IMG/VR virus record: IMGVR_UViG_3300035661_000308
Coordinates: 1 to 25,514 of that record
From: a virus
DNA length: 25,514 nucleotides
Direction: 5' to 3' (one strand)
Under the pieces are notes generated by a model. That model was not told the DNA's origin. It worked only from the letters and a program-made list of their open reading frames with translations, and ran no database searches. The first letter of the stretch is position 1; every line of letters begins with the position of its first letter. This document shows positions 3,992 to 15,014 of this stretch, piece after piece. The translations under genes and the position numbers were made by a program.

Positions 3992-4837
3992 TCAAGCAGC
4001 CTTAACTTCTTCAATTGCAGGAGTCCACAACTCAGCATGCTTTCTAATTAAAACCAATGCAGCGCGGTACTCTTCGCCATGATTATTTGAACCATGCTCT
4101 GCATCTAGCGACAATTCAAATTCTTCAATCGATCCTGAAAAGCAACCTGCTTTTAATTGAATGCCATGGTCTGTAATGAATGCTTGAAGATAATCACTTC
4201 TTGATCCAATCGGGCTAAGTTGAAAATAAGGACGTTCGCCAATAAGTTTTTTACCGCCCAGATCAGCACAGTACAGATTGGCACCGCCCAGATCAGCACC
4301 GTACAGATTGGCACCGCCCAGATTGGCACCGTACAGATTGGCACCGCCCAGATTGGCACCGTACAGATTGGCACCGCCCAGATCAGCACAGTACAGATTG
4401 GCACCGCCCAGATCAGCACCGTACAGATTGGCACCGCCCAGATCAGCACCGCCCAGATCGGCACCGCCCAGATTGGCACCGCGCAGATTAGCACCGTACA
4501 GATCGGCACCGCCCAGATTGGCACCGTACAGATTGGCACCACCAAGATCGGCACCGCCCAGATCGGCACCGCCCAGATTGGCACCGCCCAGATTGGCACC
4601 GCCCAGATCAGCACCGCGCAGATTGGCACCGCCCAGATTGGCACCGCCCAGATCAGCACCGCGCAGATTGGCACCGCCCAGATTGGCACAGTACAGATCG
4701 GCACCTCCCAGATCGGCACCGCGCAGATTGGCACCTGCTTTCAATGCCATCAGCAAAGTAATCTTCAGTGAGTTTTCCTCTACATCATGCGAGAACAAAA
4801 CTGAATTTGTGTAGTGATTTTTTATTTCAATTATCAT
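3992..4837 (-). CDS. Pentapeptide-repeat protein (281 aa)
   Basis: Residues 1-35 form a short N-terminal region (MIIEIKNHYTNSVLFSHDVE). Residues 36-200 are about 33 tandem pentapeptides A(N/D)L(G/R/Y)(G/C), with Leu at the central position in every unit, expected to fold into a right-handed quadrilateral beta helix. Residues 201-281 are a C-terminal domain (FQLSPIGSRSDYLQAF...) also seen on other phage pentapeptide proteins. Some family members mimic DNA and bind gyrase, but most are uncharacterised. The repeats are almost identical at DNA level, implying recent expansion. A GGAAAAG site precedes the ATG. Confidence 0.9.
   Translation of the reverse strand: MIIEIKNHYTNSVLFSHDVEENSLKITLLMALKAGANLRGADLGGADLYCANLGGANLRGADLGGANLGGANLRGADLGGANLGGANLGGADLGGADLGGANLYGANLGGADLYGANLRGANLGGADLGGADLGGANLYGADLGGANLYCADLGGANLYGANLGGANLYGANLGGANLYGADLGGANLYCADLGGKKLIGERPYFQLSPIGSRSDYLQAFITDHGIQLKAGCFSGSIEEFELSLDAEHGSNNHGEEYRAALVLIRKHAELWTPAIEEVKAA
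4238..4732 (-). repeat. 15-bp tandem repeat array encoding the pentapeptides
   Basis: About 33 copies of a 15-bp unit, on the plus strand GCCCAGATYRGCACC with a GTACAG or GCGCAG variant. From about 4256 to 4450 the unit alternates between GCCCAG and GTACAG, giving a higher-order 30-bp period. Copies differ at only a few positions, and because the period is a multiple of three, several other frames stay open by chance. Confidence 0.95.
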
Positions 4838-12743: not shown

Positions 12744-13601
12744 TGAGAGATCCGTTCAAAATTAATTCAAGAACAGCCATCAGCATGAGTGGTGGCCAGA
12801 ACTTCCGCATACATGCTGTGGCGCGTGTTGCAATCAAATGATGGGCTTCCTGATGGCGTGGAGGTTTGCTTTGCGAATACGGGTAAAGAAATGGAAGAAA
12901 CGCTTGAATTTGTTCGTGCTATCGAAACAAATTGGAGTGTTCCCATTCGATGGATTGAATATAGAGATGATGAACAAGGCTATGCACTGGTGAACTTTGA
13001 AACGGCTAGTCGTAATGGTGAGCCGTTTAAAGCGATTGTACAAAAGAGACATTATCTTCCAAATCCGGTTACTCGGTTTTGCACCGTTGAATTGAAAATC
13101 AGGGCAATACACAAGCATCTGAAGTCGCTCGGCTGGAAGGATAAAGAGTCTGAAGGATGGGATCAGATGGTAGGTATCAGATCAGACGAACAAAGACGTG
13201 TTTCAAAGATTCGCGCTCGGCCTAGTCCAGAAACTAGCAAGGAAACAATGATATTGCCGCTGGCTGATGCTGGAATTACTAAAAAGCATGTGGGCGACTT
13301 TTGGAAATCACAGTCATTTGATCTTGGGTTATTCAATAACAACGGACAAACGATGCACGGCAATTGCGATTTATGTTTTCTCAAAGGTGCAAATCAAGTC
13401 TTTACTCTCATTAAAGAAAAGCCAGAGCGTGCGATTTGGTGGGCTGGTATTGAATCGTTAGCGTTAGCGTCAAAGCCTAGTGGCGCGGTGTTCAGGTCTG
13501 ACCGCCCAAGCTATCAGCAAATGCACGACTACGCACTGAATCAAGACGATATGTTTGATGGTGTAGAAGATGAATCAATTTCTTGTTTTTGTGGAGACTA
13601 A
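12743..13601 (+). pseudogene. PAPS-reductase-like PP-loop protein with a single-base frameshift
   Basis: The natural start is the ATG at 12743: it overlaps the primase stop (TGATG) and follows an AGGAGG site. The frame encodes MRDPFKINSRTAISMSGG, then runs out of frame and stops at 12841. Skipping one C of the CC at 12796-12797 joins it to the frame open to 13601, restoring SMSGG-RTSAYMLWR, the PP-loop of phage PAPS-reductase-family proteins. The remainder (CFANTGKEMEETLEFV, a four-Cys region) matches the family. Translation from the internal ATG at 12789 would lack the PP-loop. A sequencing error, a real mutation or recoding are all possible. Confidence 0.85.
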
Positions 13602-13607
13602 CTAATT

Positions 13608-13979
13608 ATGGCTAACCCATGGTTCAGGCTTTATTCAGAGTGTTACGACGATTTCAAAATGATCTCAATACCAGAGGTTATGCGGTGGCGCTATGTTGCT
13701 TTGATGTGCTTGCAGTGTAGCGAGACACTTAAAAATCTTCCTGATGCTGGCGTCGCTCTCAAATTAAGAATATCACTTGGAGAGGTCGCAGAAACCAAAG
13801 CGATTTTGACCAAGCAAGGATTTATTAAGGGCAATTGGGAATTGGTTAATTGGGACAAACGGCAGTTCTTATCTGACTCAAGTACGGAGCGCCAACGCAA
13901 GCATAGAGCTAAGTTAAAGGCGGCTGAAATAACGAGGAAAGCACGCATGAAACGTGACGGTGACGTGACGGTGACGTGA
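13608..13979 (+). CDS. Replication-type DNA-binding protein, probably shortened (123 aa)
   Basis: The N-terminus (MANPWFRLYSECYDDFKMISIPEVMRWRY) and the motif SSTERQRKHRAKLKAA resemble the first part of phage replication proteins with a winged-helix N-terminal domain. Those are usually longer, so this copy looks truncated: it ends inside a cluster of GTGAC repeats. It lies in the replication block and a GGAG site precedes it. Whether the stop is natural is unclear, since it overlaps a GTG that could start the next frame. Confidence 0.65.
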   Translation: MANPWFRLYSECYDDFKMISIPEVMRWRYVALMCLQCSETLKNLPDAGVALKLRISLGEVAETKAILTKQGFIKGNWELVNWDKRQFLSDSSTERQRKHRAKLKAAEITRKARMKRDGDVTVT

Positions 13980-13997
13980 CAGTCACGGCGTTGTCAC
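13954..13997. repeat. GTGAC/GTCAC repeat cluster
   Basis: Five direct GTGAC copies (from 13954, 13960, 13965, 13971 and 13976) with an 11-bp period, then GTCAC at 13982 and 13993 in inverted orientation. GTGAC-A-GTCAC (13976-13986) is a perfect palindrome. The cluster sits at the 3' end of the replication-type gene and may be an iteron-like binding site or origin element. Confidence 0.55.
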
Positions 13998-14062
13998 AGG
14001 ATAGATACAGAGTATTAGGGAAAAAAGAACCTAATACACACCGGAAATTCAAGGACAAAAGC

Positions 14063-14296
14063 ATGAGCCAAGAAGAAATTACAACAACAGCAAGGAAGTG
14101 TTTTGAATGTGCAAGTCTTTCCATTCAAGACAGCTTTAAATTAAACAAGGACACAGGCTTGGCAATCTGCCGCAAGAAACCTGAACCAGTGGCATTGAAC
14201 TGGAACCGGCCTTGTGGGGACTTTGAACCAGCACCAGAAGCAAGCATTTTAAAAAGACGTCAGTGGAGAGATTCTAAAAATGAGACAACTAAATGA
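14063..14296 (+). CDS. Small four-cysteine protein (77 aa)
   Basis: The ATG at 14063 has an AAGGA site; a longer GTG start at 13976 overlaps the previous stop and is less likely. Four Cys in the spacing C-x2-C ... C ... C (KCFEC, ICRKK, PCGDF) suggest a small zinc-binding fold, seen in uncharacterised phage proteins near replication genes. The stop overlaps a second ATG (14293) that opens the alternative frame within the methyltransferase gene. Confidence 0.65.
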   Translation: MSQEEITTTARKCFECASLSIQDSFKLNKDTGLAICRKKPEPVALNWNRPCGDFEPAPEASILKRRQWRDSKNETTK

Positions 14297-15014
14297 GCTG
14301 GCATTGTTCGCCGGTGCTGGTGGCGGAATACTCGGCGGTCACTTGCTCGGATGGAAAACAGTCTGTGCAGTCGAATACAACGCATACGCCAGATCAGTAT
14401 TACTGGCCCGACAAAACGACAGAACACTCGCGCCTTTCCCGATTTGGGATGACGTGCGAACTTTTGACGGGAAACCGTGGCGAGGAATTGTTGACGTGGT
14501 ATCTGGCGGGTTTCCCTGTCAAGACATTAGTGTCGCAGGAAAAGGCGCGGGACTTGACGGTGAGCGAAGCGGATTATGGACTGAGCAAGCCAGGATCATT
14601 CGCGAAATACAACCACGATTTGCATATATGGAAAACAGTCCAGCACTCACTATTCGAGGACTTGGAATTGTCCTTGGCGACTTGGCCGAAATGGGGTTCG
14701 ATGTTGAATGGGGTGTCATATCGGCAGCAGATACCGGAGCCAAGCACGATAGAGAAAGAATTTGGATTTTGGCCGACTCCGTGCGCAAGGGATGGCAAGG
14801 GGACGTCAGCAAACAGAATACCAGGTCATCCTCGACACAATCACAATTTAGATTCAAAAATAGAGTTAGAGACTGGTGTCATAGTTGGCCGGCTGAACCC
14901 GCAGTGGGTCGAGTGGTTAATGGGATGGCCCATCGGGTGGACAGACTTAAAGCCATTGGAAACGGGCAGGTTCCAAGAGTGGCGGCAACAGCATTCAGGG
15001 AGCTAACAGCATGA
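14280..15014 (+). CDS. DNA cytosine-C5 methyltransferase (244 aa)
   Basis: The C5-methyltransferase motifs are in order: I, LFAGAGG (9-15); IV, GGFPCQDIS with catalytic Cys80; VI, ENS (118-120); VIII, RERIW (158-162); and X, GNGQVPRVAAT (227-237). The target-recognition region between VIII and IX-X is short, which makes the enzyme smaller than most family members. It should transfer a methyl group from SAM to a cytosine, probably protecting phage DNA from host restriction. A GGAGAG site precedes the ATG. A second full-length frame inside this gene also looks coding. Confidence 0.93.
   Translation: MRQLNELALFAGAGGGILGGHLLGWKTVCAVEYNAYARSVLLARQNDRTLAPFPIWDDVRTFDGKPWRGIVDVVSGGFPCQDISVAGKGAGLDGERSGLWTEQARIIREIQPRFAYMENSPALTIRGLGIVLGDLAEMGFDVEWGVISAADTGAKHDRERIWILADSVRKGWQGDVSKQNTRSSSTQSQFRFKNRVRDWCHSWPAEPAVGRVVNGMAHRVDRLKAIGNGQVPRVAATAFRELTA
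14293..15006 (+). CDS. Overprinted protein inside the methyltransferase gene (237 aa, +1 frame)
   Basis: This frame is open for 237 codons, lies wholly inside the methyltransferase gene, and starts with an ATG overlapping the stop of the preceding gene (ATGA). Its sequence resembles a family of phage proteins I recall independently of the methyltransferase frame: YLAGFPVKT (70-78), SFAKYNHDLHIWKT (102-114), TWPKWGSMLNG (130-140), WPTPCARDGKGTS (160-172), and LNPQWVEWLMGWPIGWTDLK (201-220). Each conserved block lies over a methyltransferase motif, for example over GGFPCQ and GNGQVP. Function unknown. The family recall cannot be checked here. Confidence 0.6.
   Translation: MSWHCSPVLVAEYSAVTCSDGKQSVQSNTTHTPDQYYWPDKTTEHSRLSRFGMTCELLTGNRGEELLTWYLAGFPVKTLVSQEKARDLTVSEADYGLSKPGSFAKYNHDLHIWKTVQHSLFEDLELSLATWPKWGSMLNGVSYRQQIPEPSTIEKEFGFWPTPCARDGKGTSANRIPGHPRHNHNLDSKIELETGVIVGRLNPQWVEWLMGWPIGWTDLKPLETGRFQEWRQQHSGS

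Follow-up and report, generated by a model that had tools for sequence, protein, structure and literature searches.

Introduction

In M.EcoHK31I, a C5-cytosine methyltransferase, the smaller polypeptide is encoded in an alternative reading frame inside the larger gene. M.EcoHK31I and M.AquI are both two-polypeptide C5 methyltransferases (PMC3404938). Here we describe a locus in the virus record IMGVR_UViG_3300035661_000308, analysed over its whole length of 25,514 bases (the window), in which two frames of the same strand are open over nearly the same 714 bases. One frame encodes a short C5-cytosine methyltransferase (alpha), and the other encodes a protein (beta) that would supply the part of the enzyme missing from alpha. 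The window has NinG, ERF, and terminase genes and therefore belongs to a tailed phage. Judging from the sequences, it is very probable that the locus encodes a heterodimeric split C5 methyltransferase in two overlapping frames.

The phage pair resembles M.EcoHK31I (and M.EaeI) in that a C5 methyltransferase is made as two polypeptides. M.EcoHK31I is part of a bacterial restriction-modification system (YGGCCR), whereas the family described here is mostly found in phages. The predicted target recognition domain (TRD) of M.EcoHK31I is in its larger polypeptide, while the variable modules of the phage pair are in beta, and the frame overlap of the phage pair is nearly complete. M.AquI is likewise made of two polypeptides; motif X of the window, by comparison, is in alpha, and we know of no long frame overlap in M.AquI. 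By analogy, the two systems appear to offer a good working likeness to the phage pair. Single-chain enzymes such as M.HhaI and its family PF00145 share the large domain with alpha, but unlike alpha they also have the small domain in that chain. The phage arrangement was not found described in a literature search in which subscription papers were mostly beyond reach, and an earlier description is possible.

Results

Alpha has motifs I, IV (PCQ), VI, VIII, and X of C5-cytosine methyltransferases in a Rossmann-like domain (Table 1). It matches PHROG 363 (E=8.9e-65) and PF00145 (E=1.4e-31), and the Pfam match ends at residue 198. Confidence in the AlphaFold model is mostly high for residues 1-168 and for the motif X helix; residues 172-229 are disordered. 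The model aligns with HhaI methyltransferase over 185 residues (Z 19.1, root-mean-square deviation 3.1). Neither a TRD nor motif IX was found in the alpha chain, as judged from the extent of the Pfam match, the model, and the linker, which is not conserved across relatives. Alpha is modelled as a C5 fold without an ordered small domain.

Beta matches PHROG 1008 (E=9.7e-24), as do 108 of the 109 aligned beta sequences; searches of Pfam and NCBIfam gave no family for beta. PHROGs names both 363 and 1008 DNA methyltransferase and handles them as separate families, and nothing was found that describes the two as readings of one DNA stretch in different frames. In the YNHDLHIWKTVQHSLFEDLELSLATWPKWGSMLNGVSY element, two residues of beta are invariant, compared with an identity of 0.22-0.33 under codon shuffling. 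Downstream is a variable region of WPTP modules, which by analogy may serve target recognition, followed by the block LNPQWVEWLMGWPIGWTDLK, with the consensus LNPxWVEWLMGWPxGWTDL across relatives. The second protein looks like the portion of this enzyme that alpha lacks, its TRD and motif IX, and not like an unrelated novelty; the original prediction missed this identity.

That prediction, made from the sequence of the window, had reported two overlapping full-length frames at the methyltransferase locus and a second-frame ATG coupled to the preceding stop. Both features are present as described, and all of the peptides quoted from the second frame occur in beta. It had also paired three beta blocks with methyltransferase motifs, and here the pairing with the GGFPCQ region stands while the other two needed correction. 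WPTPCARDGKG was taken for the other-frame reading of the RERIW region; it is actually the stretch right after RERIW (alpha residues 164-174). The block LNPQWVEWLMGWPIGWTDLK was assigned to GNGQVPRVAAT; it is actually the other frame of AEPAVGRVVNGMAHRVDRLK, just 5' of GNGQVP, and GNGQVPRVAAT reads ETGRFQEWRQQ in beta.

The conserved motifs of the enzyme are divided between the two proteins, with the motif IX-like block, assigned by position and short similarity, in beta and motifs I-VIII and X in alpha. The same division was found among relatives, counted over 376 loci that are redundant and were mostly retrieved with queries from this family. Motif IX is in beta and motif X in alpha in about 312 of these loci, and both motifs are in beta in 19. 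A switch of motif X between frames is visible in four loci (L145, L155, L241, and L244); in L145 and L155, alpha ends before motif X, and beta runs on into it. Blocks IX and X each occur once per locus in relatives, which therefore fits the requirement of a split enzyme. In the single open reading frame (ORF) of gp66 from Mycobacterium phage DillTech15, motifs I-VIII, LPTP modules, the same IX block, and motif X follow in one frame. The beta IX block aligns with this single-ORF block both in sequence and in position, 3' of motifs I-VIII and 5' of motif X.

Beta could instead be a real but separate overprinted accessory protein, for example one with an anti-restriction or regulatory function, that shares the methyltransferase DNA by chance. 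The lack of a Pfam or NCBIfam family would suit such a protein, as would an N-terminal half with no recognisable methyltransferase counterpart and a chain that is not confidently folded alone. Chance sharing does not explain why alpha lacks precisely the TRD and motif IX, why single-ORF relatives have the C-terminal block of beta in one frame with motifs I-VIII and X, or why motif X shifts into beta in some loci, and we regard an accessory protein as unlikely.

Less-overlapped arrangements also occur. Mycobacterium phages Twister and Catdawg and Gordonia phage Upyo (L377, L378, and L380) have adjacent or partly +1-overlapping gene pairs in which each gene is named DNA methylase, and from their sequences these appear to be versions of this split enzyme with less overlap. 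In mycobacteriophage-type single ORFs with motifs I-VIII, LPTP modules, IX, and X (L382-L424), the beta element SETLPTSGMTRNG..LPTP is still encoded in the +1 frame under motifs VI-VIII. This element was above shuffle chance in all 23 single-ORF loci tested, and it may be left over as a remnant, belong to a small protein of its own, or mark a site of frameshifting. In several of these loci, the +1 ORF ends (..AVMDL*) near the entry of the main frame to VDLLPTP.

Other variants were seen in the course of the comparison. The beta ORFs of L155 and L262-L265 have an additional conserved segment of about 130 residues (SHVKMCFWLMG..GRWEDA) between motifs IX and X. In L183, L213, and L215, a stop in the alpha frame follows motif VII or VIII, beta is intact, and motif X is in a separate downstream open stretch. 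Frame changes within the gene in L362, L368, L125, L234, and L270 could be assembly indels or real mutations.

Translation initiation signals were compared in the window and in relatives. In the window, the alpha and beta starts are 13 nucleotides apart, and the small Cys-containing ORF upstream is possibly coupled to beta translation. In relatives, a spacing of 4 nucleotides between the two starts was seen at 99 of 161 loci, almost always as (A/G/T)TGAATG, and an in-frame stop lies immediately 5' of the beta start in 126 of 161. Where a Shine-Dalgarno-like site is seen in relatives with the 4-nucleotide spacing, there is one, about 5 nucleotides 5' of the alpha start and about 9 nucleotides 5' of the beta start. 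The paired starts, the preceding stops, and the common Shine-Dalgarno-like site suggest that both proteins are initiated from one site. Ribosomal frameshifting from alpha, which would give a fused product without separate initiation of beta, is very unlikely. It needs neither an ATG 4 nucleotides from the alpha start nor an in-frame stop directly 5' of it, both of which most relatives have, and it does not need the conservation of beta from its first residues onward that is seen in relatives.

As the original prediction had suggested, homologues were checked for the other frame, and synonymous and nonsynonymous changes were compared; the other frame is intact in nearly all relatives measured, and both frames are constrained. 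Relatives were collected twice, once with beta and once with the alpha protein only. In the alpha-only set, the +1 frame is free of stops over about 240 codons in 74 of 76 viral relatives, compared with 4.4 stops expected from synonymous codon shuffling, and 0.6% of the synonymous shuffles of these loci were open in +1. The frame is also open in 57 of the 58 alpha-selected members that are less than 85% identical, and of all 154 viral relatives measured, 152 have an open beta frame. The +2 frame of the alpha-selected relatives has about 14 stops. In the region of the window, synonymous shuffling of alpha gave 6.1 +1 stops, and no shuffle out of 200 was open. A Nostoc plasmid locus (L260) about 34% identical to alpha has a +1 frame that stays open for some 210 codons, as far as the LNPEFLRWLMGFP block. 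Four canonical single-ORF plasmid methyltransferases served as controls and have 27-28 +1 stops each. These are methyltransferases on Enterobacterales plasmids that were opened as possible M.EcoHK31I-like systems, a candidacy that was rejected when all four proved to be ordinary single-ORF methyltransferases.

Substitutions were analysed in 119 close pairs with the +2 frame as control (first letter of each rate for alpha, second for beta; N, altering; S, silent). Changes that are silent in alpha and alter beta are depleted (dSN/dSS 0.37; +2 control 0.69), as are changes that alter both proteins relative to those that alter alpha only (dNN/dNS 0.25; +2 control 2.57). Alpha is likewise constrained (dNN/dSN 0.11, dNS/dSS 0.16). 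Beta and alpha are both under purifying selection in relatives. In the LNPQWVEWLMGWPIGWTDLK block, beta identity is 0.56-0.93 over most positions, while alpha identity in the same codons is 0.15-0.93 and lower at most of them. Coding by both frames, as first proposed for this overprinted pair, is strongly supported at the sequence level because openness is conserved, selection acts in both frames, and the start codons are paired. An untranslated shadow frame, open and similar merely through conservation of alpha (which does force some other-frame similarity, with a null identity of 0.28), was rejected because it does not fit the openness of the frame, the rates of substitution, or the geometry of the starts, and it is barely credible given also the greater conservation of beta than alpha at the motif-IX block and the many +1 stops in each canonical plasmid methyltransferase.

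Several observations weigh against a split enzyme with beta as its small domain. The beta start in the window is 22 nucleotides from the Shine-Dalgarno-like site, which would make beta dependent on coupling. The excess in beta identity over 120 divergent members (0.46, compared with 0.28 under shuffling) owes part of its size to codons inherited from a common ancestor. Codon descent cannot account for alpha residues 205-226 because beta there is mostly the more conserved protein (beta L, M, and W at 0.70, 0.92, and 0.92; alpha A205, N214, and M216 at 0.15, 0.34, and 0.50). The AlphaFold model of beta alone was poor (mean predicted local distance difference test score 58.5), and its comparison with PDB structures gave no match. 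No C5 methyltransferase was found by PDB and Pfam profile searches with beta or its IX-X part, so the assignment of motif IX rests on one short block and on position in single-ORF relatives. This lack of structure and profile matches is not counted as evidence against a TRD fold.

The pair is present in phages of Pseudomonas, Salmonella, Vibrio, Klebsiella, Mycobacterium, Microbacterium, Bacteroides, and cyanobacteria. Of 80 genome contigs spanning many bacterial phyla, 76 also have the pair, and two more variants of it are in archaeal bins or similar; all of these copies are probably proviruses. The overlap is widespread and apparently old. Annotation mostly retains one frame. Only beta is annotated in Vibrio phage 1.236.O and Pseudomonas phage phPA-G, and only alpha in Salmonella phage S9-5, while both frames are intact in the DNA of all three. 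Paenibacillus phage Jacopo is an exception, with two overlapping coding sequences that are both called DNA cytosine methyltransferase. Homologues with one frame had originally been expected to be remnants of the pair, an idea that does not hold: in phage and plasmid records where the annotation lists one frame, both are open, because the gene caller kept one frame and not because the other was lost.

Table 1. Positions of alpha, beta, and associated features in the window.
Feature	Position	Strand	Basis or remark
Alpha, catalytic subunit, short C5-cytosine methyltransferase	14280..15014	+	244 aa; without TRD or motif IX
Alpha motif I (FAGAGGG, S-adenosylmethionine binding)	14307..14327	+	Conserved; aligned to HhaI
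Alpha motif IV (GGFPCQ, catalytic Cys)	14505..14522	+	GFPC invariant in relatives; same bases read AGFPVK in beta
Alpha motif VI (ENS)	14631..14639	+	N invariant in relatives
Alpha motif VIII (HDRERIW)	14745..14765	+	H, R, R invariant in relatives
Alpha motif X (GNGQVP)	14958..14975	+	In beta frame in a minority of relatives
Beta, proposed TRD and motif IX subunit	14293..15006	+	+1 frame relative to alpha; 237 aa
Beta element YNHDLHIWKTVQHSLFEDLELSLATWPKWGSMLNGVSY	14605..14721	+	Overlaps alpha motifs VI-VII; P132 and G135 invariant
Beta WPTPCARDGKG, first module of variable TRD-like region	14770..14802	+	Module number varies in relatives
Beta LNPQWVEWLMGWPIGWTDLK, motif-IX-like block	14893..14952	+	Single-ORF relative has it in one frame with motifs I-VIII and X
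GGAGAG, Shine-Dalgarno-like	14265..14270	+	Sequence; ends 9 nt 5' of alpha ATG and 22 nt 5' of beta ATG
ATGA, beta start codon overlapping stop of upstream ORF (TGA 14294-14296)	14293..14296	+	Sequence
Small Cys-containing ORF upstream of beta	14063..14296	+	ORF list; ATG at 14063, listed as 13976-14296 from GTG

Two other genes of the window were noted. A pentapeptide-repeat protein with many AN/DLGGA units is encoded at 3992-4837 on the minus strand, and the long open other frames there (4153-4814) are repeat artefacts. At 12789-13601 (plus strand), 5' of the pair, is a gene for a 270-residue protein that by eye is like PAPS reductase-type phage proteins; it had no Pfam match at 0.001.

Discussion

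In the proposed heterodimer, the large catalytic domain and the small domain would be provided by different chains. We infer the translation of beta, its assembly with alpha, the activity of the complex, the role of beta in recognition, and the biological purpose. The large domain, comprising the S-adenosylmethionine-binding part, the motif IV Cys used in catalysis, motif VIII, and the motif X helix at its close, would come from alpha. Beta would supply the small domain, with its conserved entry element, the variable WPTP-module region for target recognition, and motif IX. The two proteins would be translated from start codons separated by a few bases and form a heterodimer, which would methylate cytosine within a particular short sequence of the phage DNA. 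Judging from the enzyme class, this methylation would most likely shield the phage DNA from host restriction.

The pair may represent an old and very widespread class of phage enzyme in which two interacting subunits of one enzyme are kept in two frames of the same DNA. Each frame would have an ancestral part (motifs I-VIII and X for alpha; TRD and motif IX for beta) and an overprinted part, catalysis and recognition would be inseparable by recombination, and both would be made from one start region. We consider this account possible and put it forward tentatively.

To our knowledge, long same-strand overlaps of two well-conserved, functionally linked proteins have rarely been documented in DNA phages. 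The phage methyltransferase family provides hundreds of natural examples, and its single-ORF, adjacent, partly overlapping, and nearly nested forms make the origin of the overlapping pair traceable. The likely recognition subunit of these phage methyltransferases is systematically absent from annotation. This has consequences for the prediction of methylation specificity, for enzyme cloning (alpha alone would probably be inactive), and for gene callers that drop one frame of an overlapping pair.
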